Positions 15,853 through 21,739 of a stretch of DNA of 32,260 nt are shown piece after piece (positions within the stretch are counted from its first letter, which is position 1; each line of letters starts with the position of its first letter). The stretch lies in assembly GCA_938015575.1 (NCBI GenBank), contig CALLPT010000219.1:1-32260 (forward strand). Reading direction: 5' to 3'. The position numbers and the translations under genes are program-made. The notes under the pieces were generated by a model that saw only the letters and a list, made by a program, of their open reading frames with translations, made no database searches and was not told the origin of the DNA. This stretch comes from an uncultured Acidimicrobiales bacterium. GTDB lineage: Bacteria > Actinomycetota > Acidimicrobiia > Acidimicrobiales > UBA10347.

Positions 15853-18800
15853 CTAGGCGCCGATGATGCCCATGTCGAGTTCGGCGAGCATGTCGTTCAG
15901 CGCTGCGAGGTCGGTCTCTCGCAGCGATGAATAGGCGCCCAGTTGTTCGTCGATCTGGCCAGCGACCTTGTCGTACACGGTGAACGACTGGGTCGTCGGC
16001 GGCTTGTCGGCGCTGCCGACGACAGGCGGCAGACCGGCCATGCGTTCGAACAGCTTCTCGCGATAGTTGAGGGTGTCGCCGCGGGTCGTGAACTCGCGCT
16101 GCACCAGCTCGGACTCGATGGCATCGAGGCGCTCGACCAGTGACTCGCCCGCGGACAGGATCTCGGCATGGGTCTCGCTGTCTAGGCGATCCTGCCACCC
16201 GGCGACCTGCTTCTTCATCAGGCGGATGCCGTTGACGCACTCGACGAGCTCGCCCAACTTGCCTTGGACTTGAAGCAGGAGATCTCGCTGGGCCTCGAGA
16301 TCCTCGACGGGGGTTTCGACGCGAGGGTCGCGCAGGAGCTGGAACGACTCGGTCATCGAAGCATCGCCGACCTCGAGCCGCACCTGGTAGGTGCCCGGCA
16401 CACAAAGTGGCCCTTTGGGGCGACCGTGGAACTCGGTGTCGACCATCTTCGGTCCGGCCGGATGACGCATCTCCCATTGGAAGACGTTCATGCCAGCGCT
16501 GGCCGTGGCGTAGCGGCCGTCGCGGTCCTCTTCGGCTTCGGGCCGGTCGCTCGTGAACGATTCGATCAACTCGCCGCCGGCGTCGAGGAAGCTGAGCGTG
16601 ATCGGCGCCTCGGGTTCTTCGCCGAGCCAGTAGGTGACACGGACACCGCGGTCGGCATCGGTGCCGCCGTCGATCACCCGCTTGCGTTGATAGCCGGTCT
16701 CGTCTTCTTCGAGGTAGAAGGTCGCGTTCTGCCCGATCGTGACGTGGTAATTCTTGCCGCCCTTGGAGCCCCAGAAGTCGGCGAACAGGTCCGGTGGCGT
16801 ACGCACAGCATCTCGAGGCGTGAACAGATGCGCCGACGCTGACAGCAGATCGTCGTGAGCCTGGTGGAGCTGGGTCAGGTCATCGAGGATCCAGAATGAC
16901 CGGCCATGCGTGGCGACAATCATGTCGGTGTCCTTGACGACCAGGTCATAGACCGGGGTGACCGGCAAGTTGCACTGCAGCGACTGCCAATGCGCGCCAT
17001 CGTCGAACGAGACCCAGAGACCGAGCTCAGTGCCGACATAGAGAAGGCCAGGCTTGGTCGGGTCTTCGCGCACAACACGACAGAACTGGCCGTCGGGCAG
17101 GCCTGCGTCGATGCGAGACCAGGTCTCGCCGAAGTCCGACGTCTTCCAGACATAGGGCGCGTAGTCGCCGTTCTTGTGGCGGGCCACGGTCATGTAAACC
17201 GTGCCGTCGTGGTGGGGCGACTCGGCCAGCATCGTGATCTGGCTGAACTTCTCGAGGCCCGCAGGCGTGACGTCGGTCCACGTACCGCCATCGTCGGCGC
17301 TCACATGCACACGACCATCATCGGAACCGGCCATGAGCGAGCCGGGCCGGTGCGCCGAGGCGATGAACGAGAAGATCGTGGCGTACATCTCGGCGCCGGC
17401 GGTGTCCATCGTGAGCGGGCCGGAAACACCAAGTGTGTCGGGGTCCGCGTAGGTCAGGTCAGGGCTGATCTCGTCCCAGCTATGACCCTCGTCTTTGGTG
17501 CGGAAGACCTTGTTGCCACAGGCGTAGAGCGTGTTCGGATCCTGGGGCGAGAAGACGATCGGATAGGTCCATTGGAAGCGGACTTCGGCGGTTGCCCCGT
17601 CGTGGTACCCCTCGGGCCAGATCGATACGAGCTGGACCTGACCGGTCTTCTTGTCGAAGCGTTGCAGGGCCTCGCCGCCACCAGGCGAGCTTCCGATCGC
17701 GCCGACATAGACAATGTCGGGGTCGCCGGGCTTTGGGGCGATGTAGCCGCTTTCGGCGGTGCCGGGCGGGTAGCAGTCACCCCAGTTGATCGCGCCCTTG
17801 CCGGTCTGGCTCGGCACGGCGATCGAAGAGTTGTCCTGCTGGGTTCCGTAGACCGTGTAGGGGAATTCGTCGTCGACGGCGACGTGGTAGAACTGCGCCG
17901 TCAGCTGGTTGTAGATGGTCGACCAGCTCGAACCGGCGTTGAGCGACACCCAGGCGCCGCCGTCATCGCAGCCGATCATGCGGTCGGGGTTCTTCGGGTC
18001 GATCCAGAGTCCGTGATTGTCGCCGTGGGGCGTGTGGAACTCGTCGAAGTTCTTGCCGCCGTCGATCGACTTCCATGCCGACGCGTTCATGACGAAGACG
18101 GTGTCGGCCTCGGTCGGGTGGGCCTCGACGTGCATGTAATACCAGGGGCGCCAGCACAGATCGGGCTTGGAGCTGACTTTGGTCCAAGTATCACCATGGT
18201 CGTCGCTGCGGTACAGACCGCGCTTGCGGAACTCGGCTTCGACGAGAGCGAACACGCGCCCCGGTTGCGCGGCCGATGCCGACACGCCGATCTTGCCGAG
18301 CGTGCCGTCGGGCATGCCGGCATTTGTCGAGATGTCGGTCCACGTGTCGCCACCGTCGAGGCTGCGCCACAGGCCGCTGTCGGGGCCGCCGCTGTTGATG
18401 GACCAGAAATTGCGGCGCGCTTGCCACATCGCGGCATAGACGATGCGGGGGTTGGTCGGGTCGATCGAGACATCGATCGCTCCGGCACCTTCGCTCACGT
18501 GGAGGACGAGATCCCAGGTCTTGCCGCCGTCGCTGGAGCGGTAGAGGCCACGATCAGGATTGTCCTTTGCCGAGTGACCGAGCGCGGCAACGTAGACGGT
18601 GTCGGGATCGTTCGGATGGACTTCGATGCGACCGATGTGGCGGCTCTCGGGTAGCCCCATGTGCTGCCAGTTCTTGCCCGCGTCGGTCGACTTGTACACC
18701 CCGTCTCCGTGGGTGACATCGATACGGATCGTCGCCTCGCCGGTGCCGGCGTAGATCACGTTGCCGTCGCTCGGCGCGACGGCCAGGGCGCCGATCGCCG

Positions 18801-19002
18801 CGGTCGACAGCTGACCGTCGGTGACATTCTCCCAGTACTGACCGGCGTCGTCGCTCTTCCACACACCGCCCGCGCACGCGCCGAAGTAGAACACGTTCGG
18901 GCGATCAGGGTCTGCCGAGACAGCAACGACTCGCCCACCGCGAGTCGGCCCGATACAGCGGTAGCGGACTTGGCTCAGCAGCTTCGGATCAACAGTGGCC
19001 AC
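15853..19002 (-). CDS. Large Asp-box (BNR/sortilin-type) beta-propeller protein
   Basis: A 1049-residue protein built from at least eleven Asp-box motifs (S/T-x-D-x-G-x-x-W type), for example YKSTDAGKNW, YRSSDGGKTW, WRSLDGGDTW, YRSDDHGDTW, FRTKDEGHSW, WKTSDFGETW and WVSFDDGAHW. This is the pattern of BNR/VPS10-like propellers often labelled 'glycosyl hydrolase' in databases. No sialidase Arg triad can be claimed, so that label is doubtful. After about residue 740 the propeller gives way to a beta-sandwich region ('APITLSFLDAGGELIESF') and a helical C-terminus ('LEAQRDLLLQVQGKLGELVECVNGI'). The GTG start has AGGGGGA upstream. There is no signal peptide, which is unusual for this type. Confidence 0.85.
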   Translation of the reverse strand: MATVDPKLLSQVRYRCIGPTRGGRVVAVSADPDRPNVFYFGACAGGVWKSDDAGQYWENVTDGQLSTAAIGALAVAPSDGNVIYAGTGEATIRIDVTHGDGVYKSTDAGKNWQHMGLPESRHIGRIEVHPNDPDTVYVAALGHSAKDNPDRGLYRSSDGGKTWDLVLHVSEGAGAIDVSIDPTNPRIVYAAMWQARRNFWSINSGGPDSGLWRSLDGGDTWTDISTNAGMPDGTLGKIGVSASAAQPGRVFALVEAEFRKRGLYRSDDHGDTWTKVSSKPDLCWRPWYYMHVEAHPTEADTVFVMNASAWKSIDGGKNFDEFHTPHGDNHGLWIDPKNPDRMIGCDDGGAWVSLNAGSSWSTIYNQLTAQFYHVAVDDEFPYTVYGTQQDNSSIAVPSQTGKGAINWGDCYPPGTAESGYIAPKPGDPDIVYVGAIGSSPGGGEALQRFDKKTGQVQLVSIWPEGYHDGATAEVRFQWTYPIVFSPQDPNTLYACGNKVFRTKDEGHSWDEISPDLTYADPDTLGVSGPLTMDTAGAEMYATIFSFIASAHRPGSLMAGSDDGRVHVSADDGGTWTDVTPAGLEKFSQITMLAESPHHDGTVYMTVARHKNGDYAPYVWKTSDFGETWSRIDAGLPDGQFCRVVREDPTKPGLLYVGTELGLWVSFDDGAHWQSLQCNLPVTPVYDLVVKDTDMIVATHGRSFWILDDLTQLHQAHDDLLSASAHLFTPRDAVRTPPDLFADFWGSKGGKNYHVTIGQNATFYLEEDETGYQRKRVIDGGTDADRGVRVTYWLGEEPEAPITLSFLDAGGELIESFTSDRPEAEEDRDGRYATASAGMNVFQWEMRHPAGPKMVDTEFHGRPKGPLCVPGTYQVRLEVGDASMTESFQLLRDPRVETPVEDLEAQRDLLLQVQGKLGELVECVNGIRLMKKQVAGWQDRLDSETHAEILSAGESLVERLDAIESELVQREFTTRGDTLNYREKLFERMAGLPPVVGSADKPPTTQSFTVYDKVAGQIDEQLGAYSSLRETDLAALNDMLAELDMGIIGA

Positions 19003-19074: not shown

Positions 19075-19470
19075 TCATTCCGCCGTAACCGACGAGGCGA
19101 ACAGGGCAGCTGCAGCAGCCGAGTCGAGATACTCGTCGGATCGCCTGATCAAGCCGTCGTCATCGAACTGCACGACGACACAGATGTCGATGCGGACCTG
19201 ACGTCCGTCGGGCTTGGTGAAGACCGCGTCGTGCATTTCGGTCGCCGAGTCGATGCCATACACGCGCCGAACGTTCTCGTAGCGGAGTTGGGTGCCGTCG
19301 GCGGTGAACGCGGGCAGCGCGACCATTGCCTGTTCCTTGGTCAGCTCGCGGCCGACGTTCTGGCGCAGGACAGCATCGGCGGCGAAGAAGCTGGCGAAGC
19401 GCTCCCAATCCCCTCGCTCGGCTGCACCGAAGAGGTCATCTAGGACGGTTGCGATTTGTTCGGAGCCCAT
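19075..19470 (-). CDS. NTF2-like/SnoaL-fold protein
   Basis: A 131-residue protein of the nuclear transport factor 2-like fold. 'VLDDLFGAAERGDWERFASFFAADAVLRQNVG' is the N-terminal helix pair and first strand typical of the family ('f.a...gD...l..lfa.Davl'). 'TEMHDAVFTKPDGRQVRIDICVVVQFDDDGLIRRSDEYLDS' forms the curved sheet. Family members are isomerases, dehydratases or simple ligand binders; no catalytic Asp/His pair can be singled out. ATG 19470 is chosen over GTG 19488, and the choice is not firm. It lies 72 bases before the Asp-box gene start and 54 bases after the cysteine-repeat gene. Confidence 0.78.
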   Translation of the reverse strand: MGSEQIATVLDDLFGAAERGDWERFASFFAADAVLRQNVGRELTKEQAMVALPAFTADGTQLRYENVRRVYGIDSATEMHDAVFTKPDGRQVRIDICVVVQFDDDGLIRRSDEYLDSAAAAALFASSVTAE

Positions 19471-19524
19471 GGCCCGACCGTACGACACTGCGAAACAGCT
19501 CGCGACACCCAGCCCGGCACCCGA

Positions 19525-21129
19525 TCAGGAACTGATCGGGGCCTCGAACCGTACGCACCACCCGTACTCGAACAGCTCGCCGGCACTGCACAGCGCGGCA
19601 CCGGCGATCTCGACGATGATTTCGCACTCGTCACCGATCAAGGTCCCCATCGCACAGATCCGGTCGGCACCGAACGCGGACACACAGCGCCCGGCTTCGA
19701 GGCTCGATCCAACGGGACAGGTTGAAACCGGGGCCGCGGCGGGCGTCGACACAGCGCACAGCAACTGAGGCGACTCGGAACCTTCGGAAGCATCGGTCTC
19801 CGCCGTCTCAGATTCCGCCTCGACCAAGATGCCTTCGGCGCACTCGGGCTCGGGCATGACCTCGACGAAGCAGCTCGTGCCGACGAGCATCTCGCCCGGC
19901 GGGCACTGGAACGGAGCCGGCGCGGCCGCAGCCTCGCGGGCACAGTCGCTGCCGTTCCAGGCAAAGTTGGCCGGACAGGTGGCGGGCACGACGAACGTGC
20001 AGTCACCACGCTGGCCGGTGAGCGAGCAGATGACCTCGACGATCGGAGGGGACCCGCAGATTCGAGAATCCTTGGTGTTCTGGCAGCCGCCGATCGGCTG
20101 GCAGCGTCCGTCGTTCAACACGGTGTCGGTCGGACACGACGTTCGCTTCTCGGTCGGCGCCGATTGCGCGCAACCACCGCTCACGGGTGTCCCCGAGCTA
20201 CAGGTGCCGGCAACGACGATGGTGCATCGCCCGTCGGTCACGGCCCCGCCGGTGCAACTCAGTTCGCCGCCTTGCGCGGGCGCCTGTTCCACGCGACAAA
20301 GATCGTCGACGAGTTCGCCGTCGACACACACCAGCTTGGCCACCAAGGTCCGGACACACCGCTGGCCCGAGAGAACCGCACCGGTGGGACAAGGAGGAAC
20401 CGCGGGCCTAGGCGCCGAACGAACGAAACACACGAACCCGCTTTGCTCGGCGGTCCCCGGACACGACGCGACGGCATCAACCCGTTTGAAGCATTGGGTA
20501 GCGTCGCCGCCCGTCTCGCCACGAAGCATGCCGGCTTGAGCAAGGCACGCGGCCGATCGGGCGCTGTTGGCAACCGGGCGTGCGATGCGACAATCCCCGT
20601 TGACGAGCAAACCGTCGCGGCAACGAGCGGAGGGAACCGAATCGTTCGGGTCCCCGGCGGCCCCGACCTCGGGATCGGACCCTCCGTCCGTCGCCGCCGG
20701 CTCCGCCGGCGGTTCAGTATCGTCGATTTCTGCCGTCGGCGCTGGCGAAACAGGCTCGGCTTGTGGCGCTTGCTCGCTAGGCGCTGCCAACGGGTCCGAC
20801 GTGGGCTCGCCCGCCTCGGCGCTCGCTTCGGGATCGATCGGCGCAGCGATCCCGACTGGGGCCTCGGTATCAGGTGGCGCGCTCTGGTCGGTGGTGAGGC
20901 TCAGGAGTATCGCCACGGTTGCCGCTGCGGCCAGCGTGACGACCACCGCGACCGCGAGAAATGGACGGTGGCCCGCACCGGACCACCGCCCCCGCCATCC
21001 CCTGTAGAACAGGAGGGGCGAACTTGCCGCCACCGTGGCGGGATTAAAAACCGGCCACCCGGCGAGTTCGGCGGAGAGCACCTGGCCGTAGTCCGCCAGG
21101 CGCTGTTCGAGCTCGGTCGACTCAGTCAC
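19525..21129 (-). CDS. One-pass membrane protein with cysteine-pair repeat ectodomain, sigma-factor partner
   Basis: A 534-residue protein that I do not recognise. Residues 1-56 are a short, probably cytoplasmic segment (TELEQRLADYGQVLSAELAGW). Residues about 57-78 are one membrane helix. About 80-165 is a Pro/Glu/Ala/Thr-rich stalk, and from about 166 to the end runs an array of roughly 13-15 units of the form C-P-x-G-x-x-L-x-x-G-x-C, such as CPTGAVLSGQRC, CPPGEMLVGTSC and CPVGSSLEAGRC. Each unit could close one disulfide. GTG overlaps the sigma gene's TGA (GTGA), so translation is coupled. Topology and coupling suggest an anti-sigma-like membrane sensor, but no zinc-binding or other known anti-sigma domain is visible. 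Confidence 0.75.
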   Translation of the reverse strand: MTESTELEQRLADYGQVLSAELAGWPVFNPATVAASSPLLFYRGWRGRWSGAGHRPFLAVAVVVTLAAAATVAILLSLTTDQSAPPDTEAPVGIAAPIDPEASAEAGEPTSDPLAAPSEQAPQAEPVSPAPTAEIDDTEPPAEPAATDGGSDPEVGAAGDPNDSVPSARCRDGLLVNGDCRIARPVANSARSAACLAQAGMLRGETGGDATQCFKRVDAVASCPGTAEQSGFVCFVRSAPRPAVPPCPTGAVLSGQRCVRTLVAKLVCVDGELVDDLCRVEQAPAQGGELSCTGGAVTDGRCTIVVAGTCSSGTPVSGGCAQSAPTEKRTSCPTDTVLNDGRCQPIGGCQNTKDSRICGSPPIVEVICSLTGQRGDCTFVVPATCPANFAWNGSDCAREAAAAPAPFQCPPGEMLVGTSCFVEVMPEPECAEGILVEAESETAETDASEGSESPQLLCAVSTPAAAPVSTCPVGSSLEAGRCVSAFGADRICAMGTLIGDECEIIVEIAGAALCSAGELFEYGWCVRFEAPISS

Positions 21130-21683
21130 GATGCGGCTCCCAACTCGGTCCGCAGGCGAGCCATGCCCCGGTGCACCCGGTTGCGGACGCCGTGCAGTTC
21201 CAGGTCCATGAGCTCAGCAACCTCGCGATAGGTCCACTGAAAACAGTGGACGAGAACGACAGTGGTGCGTTGCTCCTCGTCGAGTAGCGCCAAAGCGTTG
21301 GCGAGTCCAGGCTCGACCCAAGGCTGCTGATCGTCGGTGTTCTCGCTCGGGTAGCGCACGGATTCTCGACTCCAACGCAGCAGCCGCCGGGACTTGCTCT
21401 GGCCTACCCGGAACAGGTAGCCGGCCGGGTTCTCCATGCCCTCGAGCCGATCCCGATGCTCCCACGCCCAAGCCAGCGTTTCCGAGGTCACCTCGCGGCC
21501 GACTTCGGCTCCGTAGCGGGCCAAGAACGCCGTGCTCAGCCGCTTCTCAAGATCGTGAACGTCGAGCAGGCCAAGCTGGCTGGCTTCGGATTTTTGGCGC
21601 GTACGACGACGACGAGAAGAGGCTGCAGAAAGATGGCCGCGGGCTTCCCGAGCATGGAAATGAAGAGGAAACACCGCAGCCAC
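21126..21683 (-). CDS. ECF-type RNA polymerase sigma factor
   Basis: A 185-residue sigma-70-family protein with region 2 and region 4 only. Region 2 covers 'LEKRLSTAFLARYGAEVGREVTSETLAWAWEHRDRLEGMENPAGYLFRVGQSKSRRLLRW', where 'ENPAGYLFRVGQSKSRR' matches the common 'npraWLy.va.n..rd..R' stretch. Region 4 is 'ALLDEEQRTTVVLVHCFQWTYREVAELMDLELHGVRNRVHRGMARLRTELG', a helix-turn-helix for the -35 element. GTG 21683 has GAGGGG about 11 bases upstream; no other in-frame start fits before region 2 except GTG 21674. The extra N-terminal 40 residues are basic and of unclear function. Coupled to the cysteine-repeat membrane protein downstream, its likely regulator or target. Confidence 0.85.
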   Translation of the reverse strand: MAAVFPLHFHAREARGHLSAASSRRRRTRQKSEASQLGLLDVHDLEKRLSTAFLARYGAEVGREVTSETLAWAWEHRDRLEGMENPAGYLFRVGQSKSRRLLRWSRESVRYPSENTDDQQPWVEPGLANALALLDEEQRTTVVLVHCFQWTYREVAELMDLELHGVRNRVHRGMARLRTELGAAS

Positions 21684-21739
21684 GCACTGCTAGACCCCTC
21701 ACTGGGCGATTTGTCTCAAGATTTCTGAAACTTTTTTGG

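Follow-up and report, generated by a model that had tools for sequence, protein, structure and literature searches.

A compact ECF-type sigma factor and an overlapping one-pass cysteine-ladder protein, a probable anti-sigma/sensor pair, in an uncultured Acidimicrobiales bacterium

Why would a sigma factor gene overlap the gene of a membrane protein that carries 32 regularly spaced cysteines outside the membrane? The question is raised by the window analyzed here, a stretch of 32,260 nucleotides that represents contig C219 of an uncultured Acidimicrobiales genome (G000; 80% complete, 4.2 Mb). The original prediction described a sigma factor gene that overlaps a one-pass protein gene at a GTGA, and the coordinates, strand, and overlap all check out. 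The features, all on the minus strand, are as follows.

21692..21718, minus strand: ECF-type promoter TGAGAC-N16-GGTCT, 8 nt before the GTG start, presumed autoregulatory (common to the four closest sigma factors)
21126..21683, minus strand: ECF-type sigma factor gene, 185 amino acids, start GTG (PF08281/PF04545, AlphaFold2, Foldseek)
21372..21560, minus strand: sigma2 domain, residues 42-104, divergent (AlphaFold2 helices at pLDDT of about 94-97; missed by Sigma70_r2)
21141..21305, minus strand: sigma4 domain, residues 127-181 (Pfam and AlphaFold2)
21126..21129, minus strand: GTGA stop/start overlap of 4 bases, translational coupling presumed (overlaps are usual in relatives)
19525..21129, minus strand: one-pass membrane partner, 534 amino acids, presumed anti-sigma factor/sensor (sequence, ortholog, relatives)
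20959..21129, minus strand: cytoplasmic segment, residues 1-57, with LEQRLxxYGxxLxxEL, presumed sigma-binding element (homology across partners, alignment, charge)
20896..20958, minus strand: transmembrane helix, about residues 58-78 (19-residue hydropathy of 2.73; family-wide inside-positive rule)
20623..20895, minus strand: acidic stalk rich in Pro, Glu, and Ala, residues 79-169 (sequence)
19555..20622, minus strand: cysteine ladder, 16 C...C units with 32 cysteines, residues 170-525 (cysteine spacing; TraN-like unit consensus)

That the first gene encodes an ECF-like sigma factor is confirmed by profile, fold, and structure matches. Pfam finds region 4 in the window protein (PF08281, 1e-10) and sigma4 in 55 of 55 relatives; the region 2 profile PF04542 gives no match in the window protein and matches only 9 of the 55 family members. 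An AlphaFold2 model run with 55 aligned sequences (pLDDT 84) contains confident sigma2 and sigma4 folds without sigma3, and given the confidence of the sigma2 model, we read the PF04542 miss as divergence of region 2. Foldseek searches with this model returned ECF sigma factors at the top (SigH, RpoE-NepR, SigW-RsiW), in transcription complexes or with anti-sigma factors, and also matched CnrH of the CnrH-CnrY complex (4cxf). On this modeled structure, the window protein is a compact ECF-type sigma factor with a divergent region 2. It shares an Arg-rich N-terminal extension of roughly 40 residues with its ortholog in G004, an uncultured Acidimicrobiales MAG; the extension is absent from the next relatives.

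The four nearest sigma genes (the window gene, L010, L013, and L045) are all preceded by the element TGAGAC-N16-GGTCT, its spacing unchanged, 8 to 10 nt before the start codon in every case. The partners at L013 and L045 have other ectodomains, yet the promoter elements are the same as in the window. In the intergenic DNA between an upstream hydroxylase-like gene and the sigma gene, two blocks are identical in the window and G004, with flanks that are not conserved. We take the -10 end of the element to be of the ECF type (compare the GTCTAA/TCTGA type of E. coli sigma-E); autoregulatory bipartite promoters are common, though not universal, among ECF sigma factors. From its sequence and position, the element is most likely the self-driven promoter of the sigma gene, and the sigma mRNA is probably near-leaderless, since the start codon sits at the expected transcription start. 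We also looked for a wider regulon: other sites with the pattern occur at background level, mostly within long open frames, and are equally frequent in G005, a genome without a close sigma factor. Because of this background frequency, we propose autoregulation only. Two sites lie 74 nt (L135, G000:C242) and 104 nt (L134, G004:C405) upstream of genes for secreted or membrane proteins; these could possibly mark regulon members, as leads weakened by the pattern's background.

The second gene encodes a protein with the predicted architecture. A short cytoplasmic end, one transmembrane helix, a Pro/Glu-rich stalk, and an N-in orientation are borne out by the sequence and by the charge pattern of the family. 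Pfam, NCBIfam, and PDB sequence searches with the window partner gave no matches, and a scan of genome contigs with the same query gave none. The earlier remark that no known anti-sigma domain is visible also stands, as Pfam and NCBIfam give none in the partners at the curated cut-off. NF038083 (the CU044_5270 family) and NF052375 bear a sub-cut-off likeness to the N-terminal and, mainly, the transmembrane regions of several partners, the window protein not among them, with scores far under their curated thresholds (no more than 26 of 100 bits for partners scanned singly). An AlphaFold2 model of the whole partner was uninformative (pLDDT 39), with a helix at residues 2-23 reaching a pLDDT of 65-68 only.

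This architecture invites comparison with known membrane anti-sigma factors. Like the class I proteins RseA, RsiW, and RskA, the partner is a one-pass, N-in protein encoded beside an ECF sigma factor. Class I anti-sigma domains, however, average 101 ± 33 residues, some with an Hx3Cx2C motif (PMC7406223), whereas residues 1-57 of the window partner are shorter, lack cysteine, and match no Pfam or NCBIfam family; we therefore do not place them in class I. The layout is that of class II (CnrY-like) anti-sigma factors: as in the CnrH/CnrY pair of Cupriavidus metallidurans, a short cytoplasmic end precedes one transmembrane helix, and the gene lies beside an ECF sigma gene. CnrY differs in acting together with CnrX and is not known to carry a cysteine ladder. 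Two helices of CnrY bind sigma2 and sigma4 (PMC7406223), and the window partner is like CnrY in size, a likeness from which we claim no class II membership and in which the helical arrangement of our protein is presumptive. Among actinobacterial sigma factors, ECF48, ECF52, and ECF53 (e.g., SCO4117) are linked to a transmembrane segment, a Pro-rich stretch, and an outer domain (PMC8999054); in these proteins the sigma factor is fused to a membrane part that bears a zinc finger, whereas in the window that part is encoded by a separate gene and has none. A search for natural sigma-partner fusions among the relatives yielded long open frames that proved to be N-terminal extensions, and no fusion was seen.

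Whether the pairing has meaning beyond one contig was addressed with sigma relatives collected, with their downstream DNA, from 298 genomes. The pair itself is kept in G004 (sigma factor 85% and partner 44% identical), and the arrangement is general across the sigma group, which answers the call for a check of its conservation and co-occurrence in Acidimicrobiia: 54 of 56 sigma relatives in this class are followed by a one-pass protein gene (1 of the 54 called only with a distant start), mostly overlapping, as a rule by 4, 8, 11, or 14 nt. A phylum-wide profile search found a one-pass partner at 29 of 30 loci, many outside the class and a few already counted among the relatives. In a neighbor control, crude in that many genes were missed, one-pass pairing held for 11 of 13 sigma genes versus 1 of 26 other adjacent pairs. 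Two or three different sigma/partner pairs stand side by side or back to back at L013, L014, L058, and L069, as though the system were multiplying in clusters.

What the partners have in common is the short cytoplasmic end. Their transmembrane helix starts at residue 35-87, which leaves a positively charged end of 34-86 residues, and the inside-positive charge is seen in 48 of 53 partners. Homology of the segments before the helix is shown by leave-one-out HMMs, in which 49 of 53 score higher than every one of 200 shuffles, with the mild bias that the held-out row had helped build the alignment. Their pattern is [LIV]xxQLRxYGDxL ... P[VI][TS]xxE[VA] ... P ... RRRR. The ectodomains vary (Kelch, BNR, SGNH, META, PASTA, FtsX_ECD, and DUF3352, with the cysteine ladder in the window). 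Sigma distance correlates with cytoplasmic-end distance at r = 0.33 versus 0.18 for ectodomain distance (0.22 versus 0.06 without close pairs), a Mantel signal that is modest and confounded by relatedness. At L057:736-1674 and L058:4215-5450, the partner ectodomains resemble SGNH hydrolase and META (HslJ) domains, and these sensor parts look borrowed from enzymes or lipoproteins.

Because the part of the partners that is homologous is this cytoplasmic end, we favor an anti-sigma/sensor reading over that of a surface protein under sigma control. We put at about 0.72 the probability that the pair is an ECF sigma factor with its cognate membrane anti-sigma factor/sensor, consisting of a short anti-sigma segment and exchangeable sensors; we infer both the binding and the direction of control. 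The partner could instead be an activator or membrane anchor that recruits the sigma factor to the membrane and, by protecting or delivering it, relays a signal. An activator or anchor should be paired with its sigma gene in just this way, and the partner has no recognized anti-sigma domain, but one-pass proteins coupled to ECF sigma factors are mostly inhibitors, and we consider this role unlikely. Nor does the small size of the cytoplasmic end speak for it, as class II anti-sigma factors are equally short (PMC7406223).

The ectodomain had been described as about 13-15 repeats of the form C-P-x-G-x-x-L-x-x-G-x-C. The array is indeed regular, but the count was wrong, the 32 cysteines making 16 C...C units, and the strict form occurs once. 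The real unit consensus comprises two subtypes, one like CPxGxxLxxGxC with 10 residues between the cysteines and one like CxxGxLVxGxC with 9; 9 or 10 residues separate the paired cysteines in most units, and successive units are joined by linkers of 5-14 residues. Cysteine gaps in the window ectodomain have a standard deviation of 3.7 versus 10.3 in shuffles, and 90% versus 28% of gaps measure 7-14; because neither value was reached by any of 5,000 shuffles, this regularity is not due to chance. In the G004 ortholog, the standard deviation is 1.8. The two ectodomains are 46% identical, yet every one of the 32 cysteines is kept, as is the length of each of the 15 linkers, and length changes are confined to the inside of 5 of the 16 units. 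Conserved cysteines and linkers with variable loops look structural, the pattern expected of a disulfide-braced scaffold in which the cysteines would pair within units.

The same constancy bears on redox sensing, one of the functions suggested for the ectodomain, in which the cysteines would register the extracytoplasmic redox state through reversible disulfides. Thirty-two cysteines outside the membrane make the idea a natural one; their fixity, together with that of the linkers, speaks instead for structural disulfides, and for TraN, whose repeats are discussed below, the prediction is that intramolecular disulfides could form between its cysteines throughout (PMC9246713). We regard redox sensing as very improbable. 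No VKOR was found in the window genome or G004, both of which are incomplete.

An order-wide profile search placed the array in only 2 of 397 genomes, G000 and G004 (remaining weak matches, at E values of 0.005-0.009, were disregarded), and phages and viral contigs gave no matches. A translated plasmid search led to TraN of F-type conjugation systems and to an Alteromonas plasmid protein with long CPSGYxLxxGxC arrays. The latter, with over 90 cysteines at regular intervals, corresponds to an open frame of 1,223 amino acids (Alteromonas mediterranea plasmid CP004847.1, L141:1939-5607), where the gene table has only short hypothetical open reading frames, one of them on the opposite strand. Both proteins are built of C-P-x-G-Y-x-L-x-x-G-x-C units with cysteine gaps mostly of 9-12, like the window protein. 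As a control, cysteines were kept in place and every other letter was shuffled 500 times: the window protein scores 24.7 summed unit bits versus at most 8.2 in the shuffles (its whole-sequence HMM score is not significant), and the G004 ortholog scores 13.6 versus 8.1. These sums exceed all the shuffles, and we read the ladder units as probably of the same kind as TraN repeats, a resemblance in unit type rather than a claim of common descent. The view that the repeat belongs to no familiar family is thus not wholly supported, the unit being TraN-like. TraN is an outer-membrane conjugation protein with a C-terminal PF06986 domain, whereas the window protein is a sigma partner without it (no match even at an E value of 10, versus 2e-20 for a plasmid TraN). 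TraN has an extended, largely beta N-terminal domain (PMC9246713), and by analogy the ladder is probably an elongated rod. By description alone, the spacing also recalls the type I repeats of Cryptosporidium and Toxoplasma oocyst wall proteins (COWP), eukaryotic wall proteins with regular cysteines, six per repeat, that are assumed to be disulfide bonded (PMC4514997).

The likeness to TraN, a conjugative adhesin, together with the one promoter common to the pair, would suit an adhesin or structural protein of the surface that makes no direct contact with the sigma factor controlling its operon. Such a protein would not need a cytoplasmic end homologous to those of partners that have unrelated ectodomains and sit beside related sigma factors. 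This second idea of the original prediction is accordingly the weaker, and we think it improbable, slightly more so than an activator.

Two neighboring genes deserve mention. Directly downstream of the partner lies a SnoaL_2-like protein gene (19075-19488, minus strand), and ECF41 and ECF56 sigma factors are regulated by SnoaL-like domains; we rejected such a role here because the gene is not conserved beside the pair in G004, where a beta-lactamase-like gene takes its place. A Sortilin/VPS10-type BNR propeller protein of 1,049 amino acids is encoded near the pair (15853-19002, minus strand).

If the partner is an anti-sigma factor/sensor, the pair might work as follows. The sigma gene would be transcribed from its own TGAGAC-N16-GGTCT promoter, translation of the partner would begin at the overlapping start codon, and the two would thus be made together. 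The 57-residue cytoplasmic end, with an amphipathic helix (LEQRLxxYGxxL) and a second short element, would keep the sigma factor at the membrane, while the disulfide-braced rod on its Pro/Glu stalk would contact a ligand or surface structure outside. Ligand binding or cleavage would then free the sigma factor, perhaps by proteolytic release, to transcribe its own operon and targets. A site-2 protease is present in the window genome and G004 and also in all 14 control genomes, and this near-universality means that it lends no specific support to proteolytic release. The sigma factor and the cytoplasmic end would form a constant chassis, with the ectodomain swapped among relatives.

It is possible, at somewhat less than even odds, that the cytoplasmic ends make up an undescribed family of short anti-sigma factors, widespread in Actinomycetota, that serves as a plug-in chassis, in which one and the same type of sigma-holding end and promoter logic is combined with freely exchanged sensors (propellers, hydrolase-like domains, PASTA, the cysteine ladder) and with a sigma group in which the standard profile overlooks region 2. 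This wider chassis is of more interest than the single locus, in which a TraN-like cysteine rod appears to have been recruited as a sensor. It would mean that uncultured actinobacteria have many sigma-based surface sensors whose membrane partners carry no Pfam or NCBIfam family name, and a candidate minimal anti-sigma motif and a concrete promoter can now be tested. The repertoire of ectodomains would then list directly what these cells monitor in their surroundings.
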